Below are positions 4,688 to 51,832 of a stretch of DNA of 53,106 nt, piece by piece. The translations under genes were made by a program, and so were the position numbers. Under the pieces are notes generated by a model. It was not told where the DNA came from, did not search any database, and saw nothing but the letters and a program-made list of their open reading frames with translations. Position 1 is the first letter of the stretch. Every line of letters begins with the position of its first letter. The stretch comes from Nitrospirales bacterium (lineage in GTDB: Bacteria; Nitrospirota; Nitrospiria; Nitrospirales; UBA8639): contig BQIV01000033.1 in the NCBI GenBank assembly GCA_021604005.1, forward strand, positions 1 through 53,106. Direction: 5' to 3'.

Positions 4688-4906
4688 TCAGCCAGCTCTC
4701 GATTCTCTGACGGCCCGCAGGATATCCTGAGTCGTGACTTTCGTTTTCACCCCGGGCACATCAAAAGGAGATGTGTCTTTTTCTCGTTTTGAAACAAGAG
4801 AAAAAACCGTGCCGTCTTTTCGACGAATTTCCACTTCTTCTTTCCTTGCTATATGTAATATTTTTGAAAAATTTTGCCGTGCTTCCGAATACGTAAATAC
4901 CTTCAT
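4688..4906 (-). CDS. Phd/YefM-type antitoxin
   Basis: A 72-residue antitoxin. The N-terminal pattern (TYSEARQNFSKILHIA, then an IRRKDGTVFSLVSK strand) is typical of the Phd/YefM fold, which dimerises and binds operator DNA. The C-terminal tail (VPGVKTKVTTQDILRAVRES) would wrap the toxin. It follows the PIN toxin gene by 6 bases on the same strand, so toxin precedes antitoxin, the reverse of the usual order. It probably neutralises and autoregulates that toxin. It has no promoter of its own in the 6-base gap, so it depends on the upstream promoter at 5310-5337. Confidence 0.85.
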   Translation of the reverse strand: MKVFTYSEARQNFSKILHIARKEEVEIRRKDGTVFSLVSKREKDTSPFDVPGVKTKVTTQDILRAVRESRAG

Positions 4907-4912
4907 GTTCTT

Positions 4913-5302
4913 TTACTCCAATACTTCGATCTTGAGATCGTTGGCAACTTGCTTCATACGTTTATCTAGTGTGAGGAGTGGACATGACAAGTACAACGCA
5001 CACTGTAAAAAGTACGCATCATAGGCATAAATATTATATTCGGCAGCTAATTTTACCGCATGCCGAATATCGGCAGATACCAACCGGACAGGAATCGCAC
5101 TGATAATCTCGAACGCCAACAATGCTTCTTTAAGAGTAAGCTGTTTTCGTTTCAGCATGGCTGTTAAGGCATTACCCACTTCATAGAGTAATATCTCCGG
5201 AGAGACAGCATTTGCTTCCGATGTCAGTTGGATAATGGCATCTTTCTCTGACTCGTCTAGAGCAACAGCTAGGAATATGTTTGTGTCTGCCACGACGTTC
5301 AT
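4913..5302 (-). CDS. PIN-domain ribonuclease toxin (VapC-like)
   Basis: A 129-residue PIN-domain endoribonuclease. All four acidic metal-ligand positions are present: Asp6 (VVADTN), Glu41 (LLYEVGNAL), Asp95 (YAYDAYFLQCA) and Asp113 (LLTLDKRM). An active Mg-dependent RNase is therefore expected. The downstream Phd-type gene is the antitoxin. A good promoter (TTGACA at 5332-5337, 16-base spacer, TACAAT at 5310-5315) would start transcription almost at the ATG (5302), so the mRNA should be leaderless or nearly so, and no Shine-Dalgarno is seen. A 12-bp palindrome overlaps the -10 box. Confidence 0.88.
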   Translation of the reverse strand: MNVVADTNIFLAVALDESEKDAIIQLTSEANAVSPEILLYEVGNALTAMLKRKQLTLKEALLAFEIISAIPVRLVSADIRHAVKLAAEYNIYAYDAYFLQCALYLSCPLLTLDKRMKQVANDLKIEVLE

Positions 5303-5759: not shown

Positions 5760-5835
5760 GCGCCCGTAGCTCAATGGATAGAGCATCGGTCTTCGGAACC
5801 GAGGGTTGGGAGTTCGAGTCTCTCCGGGCGCGCCA
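5760..5835 (+). tRNA. tRNA-Arg (anticodon UCG)
   Basis: A 76-nt tRNA with encoded CCA. The acceptor stem is GCGCCCG/CGGGCGC with G as discriminator. The D arm is GCTC...GAGC. The anticodon stem TCGGT/ACCGA closes the loop CTTCGGA, giving anticodon TCG, which reads CGA and probably other CGN codons. The T arm GGGAG/CTCTC has one G-U pair around TTCGAGT. The 46 bases from 5790 to the CCA are repeated exactly at 11998-12043, so this gene is the left boundary and attachment site of the island that follows. Confidence 0.95.
5790..5835. repeat. attL: 3' part of tRNA-Arg, 46-bp direct repeat
   Basis: From the base before the anticodon loop through CCA this stretch is identical to 11998-12043. Sequence diverges immediately on both sides, as expected for the core of a tRNA attachment site used by a site-specific integrase. 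The tRNA stays intact on this side of the island. Confidence 0.8.
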
Positions 5836-6027: not shown

Positions 6028-7266
6028 CTATGCTGACCACAAACCTGGCAGCGGCACAGCATACAAATCTTTACCAAACCCTCCCAAACAGTTTTCTCCT
6101 GTATAAAGGATAATACCTTTCTTAAATTTATTTCCGGCAAGATCGGCTAATCGTTTGAGCCCTTTGAAATCAGCAGCGTGCAAACTAGCAGATGATTTGA
6201 TTTCAATCCCATACAAATGCCCTTTTCCATCCTTGAGGACCAGATCAACTTCAGCCCCTTTATGAATGCTAAAATGGTAAGGCTTAAGTACAAGATCAGA
6301 CCAACTCAGTTGTTTCAATATTTCCATGACCACAAAGTTTTCCAAAAACGGCCCTGCTTGACTTCGTTCATTCAAAAAGCTCTCATCCCTCTGTTCAATA
6401 AAATGTGTGAGCAGCCCAGTGTCATTGAAGTACACTTTCGGAGATTTCACAAACTGGCCTTCCGTATTAGGCGTCCATGCTGGAATTTTGACGAGCAAGA
6501 AAATATGTTCCAGCAGTGCCAGATAACGCTGAAGAGTGGTATTTTTTGTCCCTGATAATCTAGCGATGTCTGACATATTCATCGTGCTGCCAATTCTTGT
6601 CGCAATCAGCTGAAGAATAGTCGGCAGAGCTGTCAGCCCTTCTATATTGGATAGCTCACGAACATCTTTTTGCAAAAGGCTCGTCATATAGGATTGAAAC
6701 CATTTGTTTTTTCGCGCAAAAGCCCGGCGCGCCAAAGGCTCTGGATAACCCCCGGCTCTTATCATCTGCGCAATATCTTTCCAGGCAACCTTCTTCCCCA
6801 TAAACCCATTCTCGCGGGCGACGAGTTTTTCAAGGAAACCGGAGTGCTTCCCCTTCATTTCATCCTGGGACAACGGCCAGAGGTTGTGAATTTCCAGGCG
6901 ACCGGCTAAAGAATCCCCCACCTTGGGTAACATCAGAACATCTGCAGAGCCCGTTAAGATCATACGCCGTCCTTTTCTGTCTTCATCCACCAGCTTTTTC
7001 ATGCTTAAGAACAAATCAGGTGCTCTTTGTACCTCGTCGATGATCGCATGTTTGTGTAAATCTTGAAGAAATCCGAGCGGATCTTTTTGGGCCGCACTTA
7101 AAGTCGCGGGATCATCCATCGTCACAAACTGACCTTCAAATGCTCCTGATTCAAGAAGCCCTTTGCAAAGCGTACTCTTCCCCACCTGCCGCGCCCCATT
7201 CACGAGGACCACTGGCGTATCATCTAAAGCTTCTATGATCGCATCCATTATGAATCTCTTATACAT
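6028..7266 (-). CDS. AAA-type ATPase with DUF4143 C-terminal domain
   Basis: A 412-residue member of the ATP-binding/DUF4143 family. Walker A is GARQVGKST (about residues 24-32). Walker B with HAIIDEVQR is near 93-101 and is followed by ILTGSADVL. A winged-helix-like middle part contains MNMSDIARLSGTKNTTLQRYL. The C-terminal DUF4143 part contains GAEVDLVLKDG and GIEIKSS, a PD-(D/E)xK-like arrangement. The family is widespread on mobile and accessory DNA; its biochemical role is not settled. The start may be the ATG at 7266 or the one at 7248, which has AAGAGA eight bases upstream. It lies just inside the island next to the tRNA and reads toward it. Confidence 0.88.
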   Translation of the reverse strand: MYKRFIMDAIIEALDDTPVVLVNGARQVGKSTLCKGLLESGAFEGQFVTMDDPATLSAAQKDPLGFLQDLHKHAIIDEVQRAPDLFLSMKKLVDEDRKGRRMILTGSADVLMLPKVGDSLAGRLEIHNLWPLSQDEMKGKHSGFLEKLVARENGFMGKKVAWKDIAQMIRAGGYPEPLARRAFARKNKWFQSYMTSLLQKDVRELSNIEGLTALPTILQLIATRIGSTMNMSDIARLSGTKNTTLQRYLALLEHIFLLVKIPAWTPNTEGQFVKSPKVYFNDTGLLTHFIEQRDESFLNERSQAGPFLENFVVMEILKQLSWSDLVLKPYHFSIHKGAEVDLVLKDGKGHLYGIEIKSSASLHAADFKGLKRLADLAGNKFKKGIILYTGENCLGGFGKDLYAVPLPGLWSA

Positions 7267-8002: not shown

Positions 8003-8419
8003 TTATTCCCAGGGATTGATTAGCAAGGCTCCTGTCCCTTCAAAATCAGAAACATTTCTGGTCATAATATGAAGGCCATGGCGCGTGGCTGTTGCAGCGA
8101 TGAAGCCGTCACTAACAGGAGTCGGCTTTCCTTTCTTCTGGGTAACGGCAAGGAGTTCTCCCCATAGTTTTATTATTTCAAGATCTATATTCAAGATATT
8201 TTGCTGATATTCGGTTTCCAGTAAAGCGAGTTTGTGTTGTAGGTCACGCTTCCTTTTACTTTCCTTAAGCAGATGAATCCCTTTGGTGATTTCGCCAACA
8301 GTCAAAACGGATAGAAAGCTATCCTCAGCTTTCAACACTGAAACACGCTTGCGAACCTTTTCAGACCCACCCTTGCGCCATAATTCAGAGACGACACACG
8401 TATCAAGTAAGACTCTCAT
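8003..8419 (-). CDS. PIN-domain toxin, FitB/VapC-like
   Basis: A 138-residue PIN-domain RNase. Acidic residues are Asp6 (LLDTCVVSEL), Glu43 (TVGEITKGI), Asp104 (PVSDGFIAATA) and Asp125 (TRNVSDFEG). The DTCVVSEL start and the TRNVSDF end are typical of the FitB subgroup. The start overlaps the antitoxin stop by four bases (ATGA), which implies translational coupling in the order antitoxin, then toxin. It probably cleaves RNA when the partner is degraded and stabilises the island in the host. Confidence 0.88.
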   Translation of the reverse strand: MRVLLDTCVVSELWRKGGSEKVRKRVSVLKAEDSFLSVLTVGEITKGIHLLKESKRKRDLQHKLALLETEYQQNILNIDLEIIKLWGELLAVTQKKGKPTPVSDGFIAATATRHGLHIMTRNVSDFEGTGALLINPWE

Positions 8420-8658
8420 AGTTCAGTCTTCCGAGATAAGGATCGGTCCCGTTTGAAGTCTACCCCTTCTAAGTCCATGTTTCCTCTCAGCAAGAATTCA
8501 ATAAAGTTAGGTTTTTCCCCTGTCAGATGCTGATAGTCGTGTTCCGAGATCACGACCACTCTCTCATCACGGCGAGATACCAATTGAGGGCCTTCTAACA
8601 GAGCTTTATTCACAAGCTCGCTAAATCGGTTCTTGGCTTCAGCAAGTTTCCATTTCAT
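8416..8658 (-). CDS. Phd/YefM-type antitoxin
   Basis: An 80-residue antitoxin with the pattern WKLAEAKNRFSELVNKAL, then PQLVSRRDERVVVISEHDYQHL, characteristic of Phd/YefM proteins. I start it at the ATG at 8658 because GGAGG at 8664-8668 lies five bases upstream. The ATG at 8670 would put that sequence inside the gene. It overlaps the toxin start by four bases. The C-terminus (MDLEGVDFKRDRSLSRKTEL) resembles the toxin-binding tails of FitA-like and Phd-like partners. It should repress the promoter at 8693-8721. Confidence 0.87.
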   Translation of the reverse strand: MKWKLAEAKNRFSELVNKALLEGPQLVSRRDERVVVISEHDYQHLTGEKPNFIEFLLRGNMDLEGVDFKRDRSLSRKTEL

Positions 8659-8676
8659 ATCTGCCTCCATATAGAG

Positions 8677-8721: not shown

Positions 8722-9178
8722 GTTTTCTTTTTGTTTGGGAAGTTTGTTTGAGGTGTCTATGGAGAATGCCGTTCTGTGTTGGCGCTTTGATCGGTTTGCT
8801 CGGTCAACCAAACATCTCATCACGGCCTTAGAAGAATTTCGCCACCTTGGTATTGATTTCATCTCGTACCAAGAAAATATTGATACAAGCTCTCCGCTGG
8901 GAAAAGCTGTCTTTACCATTGTTGGCGCGATCGCAGAGTCAGAGCGAAATATTATTGTGGAACGAATTAAAGGAGGCTTACGGAAAGCCAAAGATCAAGG
9001 AAAGAAATTAGGAAGGCGTCCTATAATTGATAAGAGGCTCATAGAGACAATTCACAGCATGAGAAATCAAGGTGTATCGCTTAGAGATATTGGGAAGACT
9101 TTGAATGTTTCTAAATCCCTTGTCCATAAATCCTGTCAAAAATTGAATCCTCCATCCTCCAAAATTTCAACGACTTAG
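8699..9178 (+). pseudogene. Serine recombinase (resolvase/invertase), N-terminus lost
   Basis: From 8699 the frame reads VRPGTFDKF and then VLCWRFDRFARSTKHLI, NIDTSSPLGKAVFTIVGAIAE and ERIKGGLRKAKDQGKKLGRR, which is the second half of a small serine recombinase catalytic domain and its E-helix. A C-terminal helix-turn-helix (VSLRDIGKTLNVSKSLVHK) follows. The first roughly 45-60 residues, which carry the catalytic serine, are missing; a stop codon lies at 8687. A product of about 140 residues could start at ATG 8759 (GAGG upstream) and bind DNA, but it cannot catalyse strand exchange. It is probably a relic of the recombinase that moved this DNA. Confidence 0.8.
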
Positions 9179-9262: not shown

Positions 9263-11716
9263 TCAATGTCGGAAGTTTCTTTTTTTGCGAAGCCAAGTAT
9301 AATAGTTGGGCATTTTCAAATAAATTGCTTGGGTGGAGTTAGAAAGATCCCTAAGTGTCCTGGTGCCATTGTAATGAGAAAATTTACTAAAAGGCCCACC
9401 CTTATTCTTCCAAGTATTACTGATGCCATTTTCTGCAAATAGCTCCGTCCCAGTTAATAAAATTACCCAATGCCTAGGCTCATGGTTAACGGGCCTTCTT
9501 GCCCAATCAATAAACTTTCTTAGAAGAGCTTTTTCATTACTTGAGAAATTTTCCTTCAGTACAGAAATGGTAATTACTGAATCGGGCAGCATTTCTGCTG
9601 CTATTTTTAGCTGAGAAATGTCCTTTTCCTTGATAATATTTTCGCCAAAAGACTTCGCTTCGCCTATAACCAACTTAGGGTTACTACAATAGTCATGACT
9701 ACTTACTTCTGAGGACCAAAGCGCGAAATCAATCTCACATTTCTTATCACTAGAAATGAGATCTAATGCCGTTGAGTAGTTGGTTGAACTAATCAACCCC
9801 GGCGAGCTTAATTTACTCAGTGCATTTATCGTTAATAGGGAGCAATAAGCACCCTGGGCGTAGTCCGGGACGGCAAATGGACCAACCACTCTATACATCC
9901 AATTACCATTTTGCTTTTTTAGATCAGCTTGTGGGAAATCATAGTATTTTAAACAGCGTTCACACCTCACTTCATAAGCTACTTCATTTAAGTCGTGCCA
10001 GTTTTTAGCGCCGCAATGACTACAATCAGTCTGAAGCCCAAGTCTTATCGCGTTGCATTTTGTATAGTCTGAAATATTGAATTTTGAAACATGGTTTGAA
10101 TTGTGCTTTCTTATTTGATTTTGCCATTCCTGTATAGAAGCTGTTCTTCCAGTAAAGTTTTCCTCGTGAATGAGCGAGTCGTCTACACCACCGTGGCGTC
10201 TAGTTCTCATGGCGAGTTTGTTAATAAACTTAACTATCTGAGGATCATTTACCAAATGTAATCTCCAAAAACCATCTAGGCTGTGAAGTATTTGTTTGGC
10301 AATACGTCCTGGTTCTGACAAAGTAGCACTAATGCCAAGCTTCTTAAACCATTGGGTGAAAGCTTGATCATTCTTTAAAAAGTATAATGGTTGGTGCCAA
10401 TCTTTGTAATCCTGCGTAAAAACCCAACCCTCTTGAGTTATGCAGACATTCTCGCCACCCAGACCAAGGGAAGGCCAACTTCGATCAAAAGTATTGTAAG
10501 GCAATACCGTGACTATTTCAGAATCGCTGTATGACTTCGGCACAATTACGTTTGCCCAACGAAAACTTGAACCACTGTATCTTTGTGCAAAAAAGGGAGA
10601 AAGTGTTTCAAATTGCGAATGCATTTGGCCATTATTTTTCAATGTGAGATGAACTTGCCTTTCGGATACCGATACCTTCATCCTTTCATATTGAGGTTTA
10701 TGTAAAACGTCAACTGGGGGGTGCCAGATTGAATTTCGCCACGGTTTGAATCGCCATGATCCTTGAGGTAGTTCATCAAACGCAGGCAAGATCACTTCTC
10801 TTGCCCTTTTCTCAGTAACCGACCTTGCTATTTCTACTGTCAGAGAATGCATGATTCCATGGGGATTATCTTTAAGAGGGCGATAATTTTGACTGATTAG
10901 GTTTTTTAAAAAATCAGATAAATCATCAAACCATTTTATGGGGACTGGGAATACAGGGGAAGGTTCAATTCTTATGTTCCATAGGTCTATAAGATCTAAT
11001 GAACTGTTTGGGTCAAATAAATAAATAATTGGTTCATGATGTGAGTACCTCACTCTCTCAATATGATTGAAAGTAATACCTAAAGGAAAAATAGGACTCT
11101 TACTATGCAGTTTCAACCATGTTTCAGGGCAAGAATCAACTTCTTCGGGACTAAACACATTACGAAACGCATCTGATAGATATTTTGTTCCATTGCCTTC
11201 TGGATATACACCTATACACGCGTGCGCAAAAAAATCATTCTTGCTGGAAGCTATGATAGCCGGACGTTCGTTCTTGAGAGTAAAACGCCGTTCACTTTCA
11301 TATGTGTGTTTCAGAACGTCATAAATACTTTGTCCAAAATATGGGTAATTGAATCCTTGATATTCTTTTGCCATAAATTCGTTCAAGCCAACCACTGCAC
11401 TATTTAACGAAGTTTCTGATCGCAAGGCGGCTAATCCAGCTTTCTCTAGGAGTCCTTCTTCGGCTTCTACATAGACATCTGGTTCAAAGAAACGAACATA
11501 TCCCTTTGCTATTTCATAACCTTTTAAATATTCAAGTCTATCAGATTGCCATTCTTTGGGAGTGACCTTGAAAATGGGGATTATCGGGTTATACTTACCA
11601 CCCCAAAGACAGGTGTTTATCTGCATTATTTTTCGTATAGACGCCTTATCGGATGGCCTGACAAGGAAACCGATTCGTGTCGGTCTTAGACGTAAATTTA
11701 AGGACAACTCTTTCAT
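9263..11716 (-). CDS. Large protein with zinc ribbon and PD-(D/E)xK-like domain
   Basis: An 817-residue cytosolic protein that I do not recognise. The N-terminus (RPTRIGFLVRPSDKASI, then CLWGGKYNPIIPIF at about residues 36-49) looks like a conserved alpha/beta start. The middle (200-550) shows no motif that I can name. A zinc ribbon is made by Cys565/Cys568 and Cys585/Cys588 (CSHC...CERC). The C-terminal part has EIDFALW (Glu661, Asp663), KLVIGEAKSFG (Glu686, Lys688) and a following Gln702, the order of ligands expected for a PD-(D/E)xK nuclease. It has no signal peptide. No clear Shine-Dalgarno precedes ATG 11716; TTGACA at 11784-11789 may be a -35 box. It is the main cargo of the island. 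A nuclease-type defence role is my inference. Confidence 0.8.
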   Translation of the reverse strand: MKELSLNLRLRPTRIGFLVRPSDKASIRKIMQINTCLWGGKYNPIIPIFKVTPKEWQSDRLEYLKGYEIAKGYVRFFEPDVYVEAEEGLLEKAGLAALRSETSLNSAVVGLNEFMAKEYQGFNYPYFGQSIYDVLKHTYESERRFTLKNERPAIIASSKNDFFAHACIGVYPEGNGTKYLSDAFRNVFSPEEVDSCPETWLKLHSKSPIFPLGITFNHIERVRYSHHEPIIYLFDPNSSLDLIDLWNIRIEPSPVFPVPIKWFDDLSDFLKNLISQNYRPLKDNPHGIMHSLTVEIARSVTEKRAREVILPAFDELPQGSWRFKPWRNSIWHPPVDVLHKPQYERMKVSVSERQVHLTLKNNGQMHSQFETLSPFFAQRYSGSSFRWANVIVPKSYSDSEIVTVLPYNTFDRSWPSLGLGGENVCITQEGWVFTQDYKDWHQPLYFLKNDQAFTQWFKKLGISATLSEPGRIAKQILHSLDGFWRLHLVNDPQIVKFINKLAMRTRRHGGVDDSLIHEENFTGRTASIQEWQNQIRKHNSNHVSKFNISDYTKCNAIRLGLQTDCSHCGAKNWHDLNEVAYEVRCERCLKYYDFPQADLKKQNGNWMYRVVGPFAVPDYAQGAYCSLLTINALSKLSSPGLISSTNYSTALDLISSDKKCEIDFALWSSEVSSHDYCSNPKLVIGEAKSFGENIIKEKDISQLKIAAEMLPDSVITISVLKENFSSNEKALLRKFIDWARRPVNHEPRHWVILLTGTELFAENGISNTWKNKGGPFSKFSHYNGTRTLRDLSNSTQAIYLKMPNYYTWLRKKRNFRH

Positions 11717-11997: not shown

Positions 11998-12043
11998 TCT
12001 TCGGAACCGAGGGTTGGGAGTTCGAGTCTCTCCGGGCGCGCCA
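11998..12043. repeat. attR: exact 46-bp copy of tRNA-Arg 3' part
   Basis: Identical to 5790-5835, from the base before the anticodon loop to CCA. There is no 5' tRNA half here, so it is not a tRNA gene. It marks the right end of the integrated element, and what follows should be the original downstream flank of the tRNA. From 12044 to 12211 I see no other feature. Confidence 0.82.
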
Positions 12044-12401: not shown

Positions 12402-12701
12402 CTATTCAGAGAGGACAGCAGACTTAGGCTTGTGTCCTTCCTGAATTTTCCGTGTGGCAGTTTGTCGTAGCTCGTTCAGCACGTCTGGTGAGAGTTCCTG
12501 GTACTGTCCATTGGTGACTTGATCCTGCCCGACCTTGATTGCCGAAAGAAACTGGTTTTTGCGTTCATCTTCCTCGCGCATATGGCGAACGGCATCGCGA
12601 ACCAGCTCGGTTTCGTTCATGTAGAATCCGGCTTCGACTTTGACTTTGATGTAGTGTTCATTCGCATCGGGAAATCTGATATTCACAGCAATACCCTCCA
12701 A
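12402..12701 (-). CDS. ParD-like ribbon-helix-helix antitoxin, orphaned
   Basis: A 99-residue protein with the ribbon-helix-helix pattern VNIRFPDANEHYIKVKVEAG, NETELVRDAVRHMREEDERK, as in ParD/CopG antitoxins. A charged C-terminal tail ends in KPKSAVLSE. Its natural partner directly downstream is reduced to a fragment (12212-12400), so it can no longer be needed to neutralise that toxin. The reading frame is nevertheless intact, which suggests either recent toxin loss or retention as a repressor. It may start at ATG 12701, though no strong ribosome-binding site is seen. Confidence 0.8.
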   Translation of the reverse strand: MEGIAVNIRFPDANEHYIKVKVEAGFYMNETELVRDAVRHMREEDERKNQFLSAIKVGQDQVTNGQYQELSPDVLNELRQTATRKIQEGHKPKSAVLSE

Positions 12702-13557: not shown

Positions 13558-15276
13558 TTATGTCCCCGTACACTTGCAAGGATGTGTTTGAGTTTGCTCC
13601 TCAGTCCTTGTGTTTTCTTTACCCGCAAGATAGCCCTTTAAAAAAGCCAGCTGATCTAAGGTTAAATCTTGTTCTAAGGATTCTGGCATAACACGACTGA
13701 GCAGTTCTCGAACGTCTGGTCGTTGTTGGATTTCCTGTCCCCAGACGGCAATATCACTCTCCAGTGTTGAACTGCTTGGGTTCGAAGATGTCCCAAGTGG
13801 TGAGCCTAGATCTCTTATCAAGTCCCAGCGACAGAGCCAGGGATATCGCCGACATAGCTCGAGATGGCTGCAGATCCAGGGATAGCGTTCACAAATGTCG
13901 ATTACAGGAGGAACGATCTTATCAACGATCTTGCACCCGTTCACCACTCCATGACCATGTTGGAAGTCGTATCCGGTGGGTCCGAGATCTTCGGCGGTTT
14001 GCGTCAGTAAATTCCGAAGAGCTGCTGGACTGGTCTGAGAGTCGCTCGCGTTATAGGGGCGACGAGTGCGTATGGCTGCCACGACTCCTGAAACAACAGG
14101 ACAGGCGGCTGAGGTTCCACCATCGGCAGTATAAACGCCCGAGCCGGCAAAGTGCGTGTAACCGGAAATGTCAGGTTTGCGTTGCTCCAGCCGTCCCGGC
14201 CCGATCGCGGAATAGCCCACGCGAGCCTTGGTTGTATCGACGCCAGCCACGCAGGTGACTGCTGGGTGGGAGTTGGCGCCCCAAATGGTCTTTGTGGTGA
14301 CACCTTGACAGCGTCCGTCTGGACAATCTGCTCCGCAATTACCGGCAGCAAACAAAATGTCTGCTCCCGCACGTTCGAGCGTAGCGACGATGCGACTGAA
14401 TGGGTGGTTGAGATTATCGCTGTAATTCCCTGGATGTCCTACAGGGAAATCCCAGCTTGAATGGAACATTCCCCAACTGTTGTTTACCACGAGAGAACGA
14501 TGTTCTCCGGGACGTCGAGGAGCATTCATCACGGACAAAAGGTGTCGGTAGGCGCGAATGGCATCAGAGAGAAATGCACCAAATCCTGTGGGTGTGGGGA
14601 CAAATGGGTGCAATAAAGCGATATCAAGAATCGTACAGTCTGGTGCTGAAATACAGACGTCAAAGGCCACCATGGTCCCATGGCCCACTGGTGCACTTCC
14701 GGGAGTCACACTTGCCGGGTCCCATGCCCAGCTTCGACTTGCATCAAAGGTTGGAGTTTTCCCCTGGCTATTGAGATAGGCCATATTGACTCCCGTATCC
14801 ACAATAGCCACTAAGACCCCGCTTCCGTTCATGCGATTGCGGTGCATTTTTTTCACACAAAGCAGGTTTTCGACGTCTGTATCTGTCCCTACCGCAGGTG
14901 ATCCGGGGCAGACAATCATTGGCTGAAGCTCACGATCAGCGTATATTTTAACGGGAGACTTACTTTTTTGCGCTGCTGCCTCTACCTGCGAGATGGTGTT
15001 TTCCTCGACTGTCCCACGAACTAAAAACGTCGAAGTTTCCAGGTTATCATCAAAATCCAAGTTAGCCGTAGAGTCGTAAAGTTCGCTTTCAGGGTATTCA
15101 TGTTCTATCAGCTTCGGCATTGCAACGACAGGAAAGTTTTCATCATATTCTAACCCCTCTATTCTCGGAACCGCGGCTGACGCTAGACTTGTCTTGTTAG
15201 TGGTCATCGCGTTTAGGGCTTCGCTTTCAAGTTGTTTTGTCCGGCTTAGTTCTATAATGACAGGTCGTTTTGCCAT
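13558..15276 (-). CDS. Subtilisin-like serine protease (S8), cytosolic
   Basis: A 572-residue peptidase. The triad is Asp160 (VAIVDTGVNMAY), His199 (VGHGTMVA) and Ser389 (GGTSAACPVVSG), with the oxyanion Asn near 313 (AAGNCG), so it should be active. The N-terminal 120 residues hold a propeptide-like strand-helix unit (STFLVRGTVEENTISQVEAA, then KIYADRELQP). There is no signal peptide, which points to an intracellular role. After the catalytic domain, residues 462-483 repeat C-RYPW-C twice, followed by a Ser/Thr-rich linker and a helical tail with Cys-Lys-Cys near the end. AAAGGAGT lies just before ATG 15276. It is followed by the propeptide-like gene, its probable regulator. Confidence 0.9.
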   Translation of the reverse strand: MAKRPVIIELSRTKQLESEALNAMTTNKTSLASAAVPRIEGLEYDENFPVVAMPKLIEHEYPESELYDSTANLDFDDNLETSTFLVRGTVEENTISQVEAAAQKSKSPVKIYADRELQPMIVCPGSPAVGTDTDVENLLCVKKMHRNRMNGSGVLVAIVDTGVNMAYLNSQGKTPTFDASRSWAWDPASVTPGSAPVGHGTMVAFDVCISAPDCTILDIALLHPFVPTPTGFGAFLSDAIRAYRHLLSVMNAPRRPGEHRSLVVNNSWGMFHSSWDFPVGHPGNYSDNLNHPFSRIVATLERAGADILFAAGNCGADCPDGRCQGVTTKTIWGANSHPAVTCVAGVDTTKARVGYSAIGPGRLEQRKPDISGYTHFAGSGVYTADGGTSAACPVVSGVVAAIRTRRPYNASDSQTSPAALRNLLTQTAEDLGPTGYDFQHGHGVVNGCKIVDKIVPPVIDICERYPWICSHLELCRRYPWLCRWDLIRDLGSPLGTSSNPSSSTLESDIAVWGQEIQQRPDVRELLSRVMPESLEQDLTLDQLAFLKGYLAGKENTRTEEQTQTHPCKCTGT

Positions 15277-15519: not shown

Positions 15520-16254
15520 CTATGCCGTGGCCATCCCTGCATCGAGTGCAAGGAGGTACAGGTCATAGCTTTTTTGTATGGCATGTTTGACCCGCTGTAC
15601 TCGTGATTCTTCCGGCGTATCCCCGAGCAGATTGTAAATCAAGTCCAAGGCATCCACCGGATGCGTTTCATCATACGCCGCGTGGGCTTGAATCCACTTC
15701 ATAGCCTTTTTGCGCTGTCCTTCGGCAAAAAAGAGTTTATAGTTTGGACTTTCCCACACGAGCTGTGTCCATTCTTGGGTGACACCTTCTATGGCGAAAT
15801 TGGTAGCCGCCATGGCTTCGGCTAACCCGTCGACTTGGCAGACATGCCAACACCAATCGGTGACGGCTATGGCTGCGGTTGGACGCTGGTCGTTAAACAA
15901 TTTCTTTCGTGGGATGCCCGCGCATTGAGCCCAATCTTCGTACAATTCGACGTGTCGTTGCTCGATACGAAGATTGTTGATCAACCACCCACGAATCGTG
16001 TTCAGCCCTGGCTGTTCTCCGTAGGAACATTTCAGAAGATTAAGGGCGAGAAATTGTGGAAAGCGTTCGATGAGAGGCCATAACCCCATCAATAAAGCCT
16101 GGTGTTTGGCTTGAGGGATCGTCCCGTCACTAAACCGAAACCAGGCTTCGTGTTTGGCAACGGACTGTGCTCCTGCTTCTGTCTCTTCGACGATTGTTTG
16201 AATCCACGTCGGATAGCGGCCTGAATGAATGGCGGTTTCGACGGTTTGTAACAT
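15520..16254 (-). CDS. PqqC/TenA-like (heme-oxygenase fold) protein
   Basis: A 244-residue all-helical protein of the TENA/THI-4/PqqC superfamily, closest by eye to the iron-containing CADD/HDO-type proteins. Candidate metal ligands occur on three helices: Glu and His in IEQRHVELYEDWA, Glu in FAIEGVTQEW, and the His-Asp-His set in AHAAYDETHPVDALDLI. A di-iron oxygenase is therefore plausible, but the substrate is unknown. GGAAGG lies before ATG 16254. It ends 243 bases upstream of the S8 protease gene on the same strand, and co-expression is possible. TenA thiaminase is less likely because no thiamin genes are near. Confidence 0.78.
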   Translation of the reverse strand: MLQTVETAIHSGRYPTWIQTIVEETEAGAQSVAKHEAWFRFSDGTIPQAKHQALLMGLWPLIERFPQFLALNLLKCSYGEQPGLNTIRGWLINNLRIEQRHVELYEDWAQCAGIPRKKLFNDQRPTAAIAVTDWCWHVCQVDGLAEAMAATNFAIEGVTQEWTQLVWESPNYKLFFAEGQRKKAMKWIQAHAAYDETHPVDALDLIYNLLGDTPEESRVQRVKHAIQKSYDLYLLALDAGMATA

Positions 16255-48520: not shown

Positions 48521-51500
48521 TTACTTTTTCGTCAATTTCAAGTTATTGTGAACAACTAACTTTTTGCCTTTGCCATACATAATCTCCAAAGTGAAATCTT
48601 CGAAGCCTGAAATTTTAGCAAGATCAGGAATAAGGGAGGTTAGATCTTCTGGAGTAATGCTTAAAATTTTCTCGTCGTTTTTATAGGGAGAATCTTTGAC
48701 GGACGGAGTGTTTATATCCAAGACTAACTGATTTATCGATTGATTAGACGTTGGATTTAGAATGAGCTTAACCCCTGTTTGTAGAGCTGCGAAAAAATCA
48801 GGAAATGCATCCAACAGCAATTTATTAAAAGACAGGTTAATGCCTTTTTTATCGCTTAACGTTATCGATTCGTTTTTACCGCTCGTCATGATTTTGAAAT
48901 CTAAGTTTTTATTTACAAGGGTCGCATTTTTTGCACTCTGTTTTCCAAAATAGACAAAGGTGCCTATTGTCTCAGCTTTGCCAAGTTTTTGGTACACATC
49001 GTCAGGGCTTTTCTGGACTTTGACTAAAGCCTCTAAATGTTCCACATCATTTGGATTGCTCCCCCGAAAAATTTTGTTTGGTAACGCAACGGTGAAAAAA
49101 GTCTTGGCCTTTCCGGAGGCGATTTGTTTACGAGAGTGTGTTCCTAGGTCAAGCCAATCTGCAAAGGTGCCTCTCTTCCTACGGACAAATAATTTTGCTC
49201 CACTGAAGCGTTCAAGCGGTGTACTTGGTTCAACCGAAATTTCTATATCATCCCCGTTATCAACAAACGTAGAAACTAATTTCACCGTAGACGTTTTTGT
49301 GACAGACTTCCTTCCAAGAATCGTCACCGCATTGGGTCGTACCGATTGGCCTGTGCTGGTCACAACTCGTAAGTCCCAGGTGTTACTCTTATTGCCTGGC
49401 TTGCGAACAGGCAATTGTAATTTGTTGAATGTTGCGACAATTCCATCCATGTCAGATTGTATTGTGATCTTGTCGGCTTCTTGATGGCCAACAAATACTT
49501 GAGGATTACGCCATAATTCTTTACCCCGAATTACGAGTTGGGTCTCACAAGGATTTTCTTGATTAAGTGCTAGCTTACAGTTGGCTGGCGCAGCCTGAAT
49601 AACATAGTTTAAAGAGGGATCCAAAAGAGGTCTTCTCGTTTCGTTTCCAGCCATAAAGGACGTGGTGAGGGCAGAATAATCTGTTGGCAAATTAACCTTG
49701 TCCGGCTTTTGATGTTCTAATATTCTCCCATTGGGGGTTGGCGATTTCCAACTAAATTCTGGGCAAGACTCTGTGTTGACGGGTTCACCATCTTTATTCA
49801 ACCAAAAACATTTTGCGGTGATACGAATATAAGGATACCATGCCGGAGCAACAACAGAAGCATGAAATGAATGTTGTTGCGCGGTGTGCTCGAATGCTGC
49901 TTTAATTTCCTTATCTCCAAATGGCCAAAATGACCAAAATCCCTCTTGATGTTCTATCTTGAATTTAGGTCCAAACACCCAACCAAATTTCGTACGACCT
50001 TTCAAAAAGCCTACCGCTAGTGGTTTACGTTGAATACTGTGCAATACTTCTTGAGAACGATTCAATTTTTCAAGATAGCCTTCGATATTGGTGCCAGCTT
50101 GAGGCAATATGGCTTTTAACGAAAGGATAAAGTTTTTCATCTCTTCTCTTGCCGCCATTTCAGAGATATTTTGCGCATATTCCTTCGGCTCGACGGAGTA
50201 TGCATATGGTTTAATGTCGTGAACATCATTTAACTCTTTTATTTTTTCGAGAAACTTTGCAAACCGTTTCCACTTGTCGTTATTAATTGATTTCTCGATA
50301 TAAAGGGAACACGAATCATCCATGCCCTGCTTATTCTGCGGATCTTTTGAAAAATAAATTTTTACAGGAGCAAAGTCTTTAACTTTGTCATGGTATTTGT
50401 GCCAAAGAGCGCCGCATATCTGAGCATTTGTTGGAATAGGCTCTGTGCTTAAAATACCCATCATTCCCGCCCCAGAAGAGCATCGACTATTCCCCTGTTT
50501 GTTGGAAAACGATTTCTCACAAGTTCTCTCGCTGTCATTTTTAGAGTCAATTTCCTTACTCATTTCTTTCTGTATAGTGCTCCAGCAGGTAGGGGTACTA
50601 CCCTTTGCCTTTGCCTCTACCTCTTTATCATTACTGTACTTTACGTATTTTACGCATGCATTATTGAGCTGATTTGATGTTTGTTGAGAGAGCAGTGCCG
50701 TGTGTCTACGTATATCGATTATCTCCTCATCTCCCAACTCGCCTTTCGTGCGTTTCGCTTGAAGGATGTAGGTTTTTTCAGCAATCTCTCTTTCAAAACT
50801 TTCAAGCCAATGCTCATAGACACCCAACATTTCTAGGAGTTCAATTTTTTGAAAATCAATTTCTTCATCAATTTCCTTTTTACTAGGGAGGTTGTAGCCA
50901 GTCTCTTCCATCATGCTTTTTACTTTTTCCCGAAGTTGCTCATTACCGTGTATTCCTTTAGGGTCACAATATGAATGGGATTCAAAATCGTTATTGCCAG
51001 AAGAAATGCATTCTCGGACAATAAAAGTGTCTAGCAGATTTGACTCATTCAACTTAATTTCAACTTCCGCTAATGTATCCTCACCCTCCCCAGGGATTAT
51101 TGTAGAATCAAATTTAAGGGTGTAGAGTCCATATCCCAGAAGATCGTGCGAGTCATCGAGCTCGGTTTCACTTATCATTCCGTTGACAATATCTCGATAG
51201 GCTTTTTCATCACGCAGTAAATCGATGCTGCTCAAATTAGCCTTATTTTCATCTGTAATGGATAAATCAGGCAATTTCGTTTCTGCATCGTTCGAAAGAG
51301 TTCCTACTAGAGGCGCTCCCTGGCCTGCATCCGGTTTCCCCGGGTCATTCTCCTCGGTTTTTTCTTGCTCTATCTCGTTCTCCTCAGAAGTGGCTTTTGT
51401 AGATTCTGAGCCGTCCGAACTTTTTAGTTTCTTAATATCTTTTTTTAGCTGCAATACCTTTTTTTTGTGTTCCAGACGTGCCAGTTCATCCTTCCGTTCG

Positions 51501-51832
51501 GCTTCATGAATATCATTATTCTTTTCTACCGCATCTAACGCTCCTTGTAGTGGATCAATCGTGGCTTTTACTGATCCCAACAATCCTGCAAACTGTTTAG
51601 TTGTACGATGAGCTCCGAATGATTGATGAAATTCTCCAGATTTAAGCTTGCCTCGAAGCCATTCTAATTCACCATGTCTTCGTGAAACTAATCGTTCGCG
51701 CGTAAAGGCTTCTGGCCGGTCAACGACAATCTGCCCCTTTTGGGGGCTAGACGAACAACCTATCAGGTAGGTCGAATTCATAATAAGACACGCTAACACT
51801 AGGTTGGTGAATTTGATCTTCCGCATCATCAT
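48521..51832 (-). CDS. Very large putative lipoprotein, family unknown
   Basis: A 1103-residue exported protein. The signal (FTNLVLACLIMNSTYLIGC) ends in a lipobox LIGC followed by SSS, so it is probably outer-membrane anchored. A charged coiled-coil segment (about 95-140) and a Glu/Ser-rich linker (140-190) precede a helical middle with many Cys residues (CISSGNNDFESHSYC, CVKYVKY, CWSTIQ, CEKSF, CSSGAG). From about 740 on it is beta-rich, with YVIQAAPANCKLALNQENPC and then IRGKELWRNPQVFVGHQEA, resembling IPT/Ig-like domains. GGAGG lies 4-10 bases before the ATG triplet at 51832. It is richer in A+T than the Bat region, suggesting acquired DNA. No function can be assigned. Confidence 0.8.
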   Translation of the reverse strand: MMMRKIKFTNLVLACLIMNSTYLIGCSSSPQKGQIVVDRPEAFTRERLVSRRHGELEWLRGKLKSGEFHQSFGAHRTTKQFAGLLGSVKATIDPLQGALDAVEKNNDIHEAERKDELARLEHKKKVLQLKKDIKKLKSSDGSESTKATSEENEIEQEKTEENDPGKPDAGQGAPLVGTLSNDAETKLPDLSITDENKANLSSIDLLRDEKAYRDIVNGMISETELDDSHDLLGYGLYTLKFDSTIIPGEGEDTLAEVEIKLNESNLLDTFIVRECISSGNNDFESHSYCDPKGIHGNEQLREKVKSMMEETGYNLPSKKEIDEEIDFQKIELLEMLGVYEHWLESFEREIAEKTYILQAKRTKGELGDEEIIDIRRHTALLSQQTSNQLNNACVKYVKYSNDKEVEAKAKGSTPTCWSTIQKEMSKEIDSKNDSERTCEKSFSNKQGNSRCSSGAGMMGILSTEPIPTNAQICGALWHKYHDKVKDFAPVKIYFSKDPQNKQGMDDSCSLYIEKSINNDKWKRFAKFLEKIKELNDVHDIKPYAYSVEPKEYAQNISEMAAREEMKNFILSLKAILPQAGTNIEGYLEKLNRSQEVLHSIQRKPLAVGFLKGRTKFGWVFGPKFKIEHQEGFWSFWPFGDKEIKAAFEHTAQQHSFHASVVAPAWYPYIRITAKCFWLNKDGEPVNTESCPEFSWKSPTPNGRILEHQKPDKVNLPTDYSALTTSFMAGNETRRPLLDPSLNYVIQAAPANCKLALNQENPCETQLVIRGKELWRNPQVFVGHQEADKITIQSDMDGIVATFNKLQLPVRKPGNKSNTWDLRVVTSTGQSVRPNAVTILGRKSVTKTSTVKLVSTFVDNGDDIEISVEPSTPLERFSGAKLFVRRKRGTFADWLDLGTHSRKQIASGKAKTFFTVALPNKIFRGSNPNDVEHLEALVKVQKSPDDVYQKLGKAETIGTFVYFGKQSAKNATLVNKNLDFKIMTSGKNESITLSDKKGINLSFNKLLLDAFPDFFAALQTGVKLILNPTSNQSINQLVLDINTPSVKDSPYKNDEKILSITPEDLTSLIPDLAKISGFEDFTLEIMYGKGKKLVVHNNLKLTKK

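Follow-up and report, generated by a model that had tools for sequence, protein, structure and literature searches.

An 817-codon gene on a small island bounded by a tRNA gene raises two questions, namely whether its product defends the host and whether it does so by itself. The initial annotation, made from the letters of the window (the whole 53,106-nucleotide stretch of Nitrospirales DNA analysed here), had proposed a stand-alone nuclease-based anti-phage system or the effector of one. In this study, the 817-aa protein was found to be a member of a coherent family that is unnamed in the libraries checked. The stand-alone alternative fits this family better than an effector of a multi-gene system because no conserved partner gene accompanies it, and the data are best read as a nuclease-based anti-phage system that acts alone, although this is unproven.

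The gene and its family

The open reading frame runs on the minus strand from 11716 to 9263 over 817 codons, and a plus-strand reading of the same region meets many stops. Its assignment as a sensor-nuclease family gene (9263..11716, minus strand) is based on this frame, on 103 relatives and on a start aligned with homologues, and the start codon is sound because close homologues begin at the same Met. The gene has a GC content of 39% against 48-50% in its flanks, and scans for a promoter and a terminator returned matches at chance level only. As the initial annotation had held, the protein belongs to no family that can be named: Pfam, NCBIfam and PADLOC gave 0 matches to it and none common to 58 relatives, a PDB sequence search with the 65-row profile gave nothing significant, and the family is described in no paper found in the literature searched, where subscription papers were mostly outside reach.

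The paired CxxC...CxxC pattern occurred in 0 of 5000 shuffled sequences. The pattern E.D.{10,40}E.K alone occurred in 24% of shuffles and therefore proves nothing in one sequence; the catalytic motif is nevertheless real, because all eight zinc-ribbon and catalytic residues (C565, C568, C585, C588, E661, D663, E686 and K688) are invariant over a 73-row alignment, down to 21-24% sequence identity. The zinc ribbon claimed earlier (residues 557-600, 9917..10048, minus strand) is thus present, with its hairpins seen in the model, and so are E661-x-D663 (9728..9736, minus strand) and E686-x-K688 (9653..9661, minus strand), which lie on model strands 658-668 and 681-688, respectively. Q702, which had been listed as a further PD-(D/E)xK ligand, did not hold up, being Q in only 4 of 73 rows and mostly R or K elsewhere; D699 is a conserved acidic residue near it (64/73). 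G169, D241, W246, N247, G612, G622 and T755 are likewise at 1.00 in the 73-row alignment. Residues 1-90 and 241-260 rank among the best-conserved parts of the protein and the middle among the least conserved.

A first genome scan with the single sequence as query found 0 relatives. Led by the alignment, a scan of 84,980 species genomes recovered 103, a lower bound owing to pattern seeding, of which 80 were fetched. They are spread over about a dozen phyla, including Pseudomonadota, Nitrospinota, Nitrospirota, Acidobacteriota, Planctomycetota, Poribacteria, Myxococcota, Latescibacterota and Omnitrophota. The gene is single-copy in its own genome, which is the sole carrier among 60 of its relatives and one of only 2 carriers in 296 sampled genomes of its phylum; the other is a Nitrospira MAG (44% identity; locus L005, the same as L013). 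A full-length homologue (WP_341509620.1, 33%) is present in a plasmid record of Photobacterium damselae, and a remote one (WP_231145838.1, 21% over the whole length; L004:10777-13083) on a plasmid of Bradyrhizobium barranii, where it lies directly 3' of a PrlF/YhaV pair. This remote branch was also seen as a partial match on the Sphingomonas plasmid NZ_CP032828.1 (13361-14171). The E. coli genomes and phage records searched contained 0 homologues. The tree of the 73 rows mixes phyla and departs from host phylogeny, with 10 changes required for Pseudomonadota. In it, the window protein is placed beside two Nitrospinota proteins (support 95), and two Halomonadaceae proteins join this group next (support 100). 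Some rows in the alignment and tree are MAGs with possible misbinning, which leaves the window copy unaffected. In five loci (L023, L048, L062, L063 and L068) the gene is broken across two or three frames.

The predicted nuclease half and its nearest structures

The AlphaFold2 model built from 65 rows (pLDDT 89.3, pTM 0.87) has the nuclease fold that the initial annotation had looked for, and D663, E686 and K688, whose conservation it had made a second check, are those invariant among the 73 homologues. In the model, the acidic pair and the (D/E)xK lie on core strands of a predicted restriction-endonuclease-like alpha/beta fold, and the PD-(D/E)xK core (residues 606-817, 9266..9901, minus strand) was delimited by VIA-align to Cdn1, Card1, Can2, FokI and HindIII. 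Judged by this model, the protein is almost certainly a nuclease of the PD-(D/E)xK type. The best PDB match by Foldseek was Cdn1 with cA4 (E 1.5e-3, probability 0.98), and VIA-align also ranked Cdn1 first (Z 11.4, 226 aligned, rmsd 4.4), followed by Card1 (10.2), Can2 of several sources (9.4-8.4) and VC1899 (9.1). Lower scores followed: FokI 7.8, HindIII 6.7, EndoMS 5.9, AspBHI 5.6 and MspJI 5.4. A fold search of a viral structure library gave no match.

The aligned span covers model residues 451-790 against chain positions of about 140-379, that is, the core together with the preceding helices and two antiparallel strands. Can2 and VC1899 carry an accessory motif of four helices flanking two antiparallel strands (PMC7969007), and this motif fits the family because the span includes helices and two antiparallel strands before the core; the corresponding module (residues 448-545, 10082..10375, minus strand) precedes the nuclease core as in the Can2/Card1 build. 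The motif residues are equivalent in pattern to those mutated in Can2 proteins, namely E276A/D278A in SthCan2 for E661/D663 and E302A/K304A in TsuCan2 for E686/K688 (PMC7969007). Can2, Card1, Cdn1 (DUF1887, PF09002) and the orphan VC1899 therefore resemble the family in a PD-(D/E)xK core with E-x-D...E-x-K (Z 11.4-8.4) and, likewise, in an accessory helical/beta module and a Rossmann-like region N-terminal to the nuclease. However, the new family is about twice as long as Can2, Card1 and Cdn1, with an extra zinc ribbon and beta-rich region, and unlike Can2 and Card1 it has a 330-aa N-terminal region without a recognisable CARF. The ribbon, at about 557-600, falls inside the aligned span and has no counterpart in the description of Can2 and VC1899 (PMC7969007). 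The Card1_endonuc/DUF1887 profile gave no Pfam match to the protein and none common to 58 members, a PF09002 search of its whole genome gave 0 matches, and profile-profile comparison of either half with 16 Can2-type proteins from the same phylum found no match. Because sequence and profile similarity are lacking, we regard this as structural resemblance to Can2 and not as demonstrated membership.

Two further kinds of enzyme resemble the family in build. Shedu (SduA, DUF4263) is a single-gene defence protein in which an N-terminal part for recognition is joined to a PD-(D/E)xK nuclease (PMC12904381). The family is like it in consisting of one gene with an N-terminal part and such a nuclease, but differs in that the DUF4263/Shedu profile is unmatched in the protein and 58 relatives; no Shedu or SRA-domain structure appeared among the fold-list matches, but a fold of either kind may nevertheless be present. 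The modification-dependent restriction enzymes MspJI and AspBHI (Z 5.4-5.6) are likewise PD-(D/E)xK cutters; they read DNA through a separate N-terminal domain and lack a methylase of their own. Their structural match lies below that of the CARF nucleases, and the family differs in having a zinc ribbon beside the nuclease and in that no known base-reading domain was found in it.

This likeness bears on the main rival to a gated nuclease, the direct reading of foreign DNA features: the protein might be a stand-alone modification-dependent (Type IV-like) restriction enzyme whose N-terminal and middle regions would read a chemical mark or structure of foreign DNA for the PD-(D/E)xK domain to cut, without any signalling ligand. 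The nuclease region does match FokI, HindIII, AspBHI and MspJI, a conserved methylase partner is absent as expected of a Type IV enzyme, Type I restriction neighbours recur (see below), and zinc ribbons are frequent nucleic-acid binders. However, CARF nucleases clearly outrank restriction enzymes (Z 11.4 against 7.8), SRA, PUA-like, EVE and other base-reading domains are unmatched by sequence, and the N-terminal region is Rossmann-like, so that we consider a Type IV-like enzyme unlikely. A nuclease gated by something that its own N-terminal part detects is favoured over direct DNA reading, since the protein is built like Can2 and its N-terminus is Rossmann-like and under strong constraint.

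The tRNA-Arg island and the neighbourhoods of homologues

The bounding of the island by a tRNA proved stronger than had been claimed. The last 46 bp (5790-5835) of a tRNA-Arg (TCG) gene (5760..5835, plus strand), the integration target, form an att-like repeat, and an exact second copy of this 3' end (11998..12043, plus strand) marks the far boundary of a 6.2-kb island; 0 exact repeats of 46 bp are expected by chance. The sensor-nuclease gene lies, as stated, beside toxin-antitoxin genes, but it is not alone. By profile match, the island also carries an AAA_14 + DUF4143 ATPase (6028..7266, minus strand), a Phd/YefM antitoxin and PIN toxin pair (8003..8670, minus strand) and a truncated serine recombinase (resolvase; 8735..9178, plus strand), which covers profile positions 65-145 of 145, lacks the first 64 and has a 94% DNA match in a related island. 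The latter is a 37-kb element in a same-genus genome (G296:C12, about 11357-48678; L103, L104) at the same tRNA with the same repeats, with a 533-aa serine recombinase beside the tRNA and, by eye, relaxase-like genes. The same element encodes a 2165-aa protein of no recognised kind (L103:10100-16597). In another relative (G297), the tRNA is followed by other genes, among which an HNH-like protein, a DUF4143-type ATPase and a pair resembling toxin-antitoxin genes were recognised by eye. The tRNA-Arg site is an integration hotspot. The window island has no complete recombinase of its own and could be decaying after recombinase loss, with the sensor-nuclease gene intact.

Several other genes were noted around the island in the window. 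A second Phd/PIN pair lies just left of the tRNA (4688-5302), and to the right of the island is a ParD-like antitoxin for which no toxin is evident (12402-12701). Just outside the island are a 572-aa subtilase-family S8 peptidase with a weak mycosin match (13558-15276) and a haem-oxygenase-like/CADD-type protein (15520-16254), and towards the right end of the window, where GC is low (39-43%), a 1103-aa predicted lipoprotein-like protein is encoded (48521-51832).

No partner gene recurs in most loci of the family. Counted over 83 loci, co-directional genes at a distance of up to 120 bp number 20 upstream and 15 downstream, and these are mostly different from one another. The recurrent neighbours are Type I restriction genes, identified from Pfam/PADLOC tallies and sequences: an HsdM-like gene lies within 6 kb in 6 loci, five of them independent, an HsdR-like gene in 4 and an HsdS-like gene in 3. 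HsdM in 6 of 80 flanks compares with about 0.17 expected, a rough estimate with a baseline from 20 genomes only (26 HsdM_N places in about 116 Mb of the 20 carrier genomes, for 0.77 Mb of flank). Two Poribacteria loci (L060 and L066) have the gene placed after hsdM and 5 bp before hsdS, with hsdS/hsdR on that side. In Citrobacter R56, a Type I operon flanks the gene on one side, and a P4-type integrase, recognised by eye, stands two genes away on the other. In one of the Poribacteria MAGs (L066:6837-8704), the Type I restriction operon also contains, between hsdM and the sensor-nuclease, an AAA ATPase and a gene that looks PIN-like by eye.

Other associations are single cases. In the Nitrospira MAG (L005:5626-7363, also L013:3237-4971), a 284-aa protein without a Pfam match lies 43 bp downstream and is followed by a TIR-domain protein, possibly a separate two-gene defence operon. 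In an alphaproteobacterial MAG (L010:8347-9960), a fused AAA_21-DUF4435 protein, which looks like the two PARIS proteins in a single chain, lies 11 bp upstream of the family member. A SIR2-like gene (by eye), Hypoth_Ymh, and an annotated Abi-family gene with an S8 peptidase and an ATP-binding protein were found elsewhere. Many other loci lie amid ordinary genes such as tRNA synthetases, sulfatases and HSP70. Confinement to housekeeping contexts, which the initial annotation had named as a refutation, is thus not seen, since several homologues lie within Type I restriction operons or next to these, to TIR, to SIR2-like or to PARIS-like genes. A sporadic distribution and clustering with defence genes were both found, the clustering in a minority of loci. 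A near-versus-far tally of PADLOC matches was uninformative and not a clean test, because one restriction gene matches many redundant models.

These neighbourhoods also bear on the proposal that the nuclease serves mobile-element biology or DNA repair, e.g. by processing island or incoming plasmid DNA, and not phage defence. Carriage on a tRNA island with a recombinase remnant and toxin-antitoxin genes, the plasmid copies in Photobacterium and Bradyrhizobium and the many loci without a defence neighbour are all consistent with such a role. On the other hand, no single type of integrase, relaxase or replication gene accompanies the family, and the excess of Type I restriction neighbours is unexpected for a transfer gene, which makes this proposal improbable.

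The putative sensor and its proposed mode of action

The N-terminal 330 residues (10727..11716, minus strand) form a Rossmann-like alpha/beta region, the putative sensor, as defined by AlphaFold2 models of the whole protein and of the region alone, fold searches and conservation. Folded alone, it gave pLDDT 91.1 and pTM 0.91, again alpha/beta and Rossmann-like. It is followed by a beta-rich region (residues 331-447, 10376..10726, minus strand), delimited by model secondary structure and the conservation profile, in which the protein is least conserved. The N-terminus had been described as conserved-looking, and indeed RPxR and WGGxxNP are conserved, with R11, P12, W38, G39, G40 and N43 each at 0.97. 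In the 65-row alignment these six residues are invariant, together with P47, P79, D80, V83, G128, G169, D241, W246 and N247. Such conservation points to a strongly constrained functional pocket or interface. The best structural match was a lobe of the GluA1 amino-terminal domain (Z 8.1), over 85 residues only; the C. difficile Cwb2 cell-wall domains matched at Z 7.9 over 222 residues, and the Csm6 CARF (Z 5.2) and Cap5 SAVED (Z 5.1) matches were within background level. All these scores are no higher than unrelated folds would be expected to give, and the GluA1 and Cwb2 matches were judged to be background. The label 'sensor' rests on architecture, because no sensor superfamily is clearly matched by the region (best Z about 8). 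WGGKYNPIIP and LWNIRIEPSPVFPVP look alike, but an internal N-terminal duplication was rejected after a profile-profile test gave no support.

The Can2-like shape raises the possibility of a CARF/SAVED-type effector responding to a cyclic oligonucleotide that type III CRISPR or CBASS would supply in trans, from elsewhere in the genome. The nuclease half is closest to Cdn1, Card1 and Can2, the N-terminus is Rossmann-like with the weak Csm6 CARF and Cap5 SAVED matches, and the own genome encodes one SMODS cyclase. However, a Csm1-type Cas10 above the cut-off was found in 0 of 20 carrier genomes (the search covered the Csm1 type), and type III CRISPR signalling is therefore unlikely as a general trigger; in the own genome, two sub-threshold Csm1 matches cover the first 125 profile positions only. 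A SMODS cyclase was found in 6 of the 20, no CD-NTase/cyclase partner adjoining the gene recurs across loci, and neither end has profile similarity to the Can2 family. Association with type III CRISPR is no absolute feature of the Can2 group, VC1899 being itself an orphan. Taken on both sides, an effector of this kind is very improbable. An ordinary Type II restriction enzyme is unlikely because the gene has no conserved methylase.

We return to the stand-alone anti-phage nuclease. The protein is probably an anti-virus defence protein because a front domain is coupled to a nuclease domain and the gene is carried on a small mobile island; a defence role, judged from family, fold and context, is likely. 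With somewhat less confidence, we favour a self-contained single-gene sensor-nuclease that defends the host, or its island, against phages or other invading DNA. Whether the nuclease is ligand-gated rather than always-on is evenly balanced in our judgement. The resting protein would be inactive, and the N-terminal 330 residues would bind an infection-related ligand or structure. The activated nuclease domain might then nick DNA and/or cut RNA via E661/D663/E686/K688, and the phage or the cell would be stopped. More tentatively, the family may be a new CRISPR-independent, one-protein sensor-nuclease group in which a hitherto undescribed Rossmann-like sensor would recognise an infection signal common to many cases and thereby activate the Can2-like nuclease. 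The putative sensor's invariant set (RPxR, WGGxxNPxxP, PDxxV and DLxDxWN) might, equally tentatively, mark a cyclase-free counterpart of Card1/Can2.

Few single-gene nucleases, Shedu being one, detect phage themselves, and their discrimination of self from non-self is an active question. Given the spread of the family and the strict conservation of its nuclease site and N-terminal set, one structure could reveal a new infection signal. If the proposed reading is true, the Can2-type nuclease shape would work outside CRISPR signalling, which would bear on the origin of CARF nucleases and on the role of the orphan VC1899.
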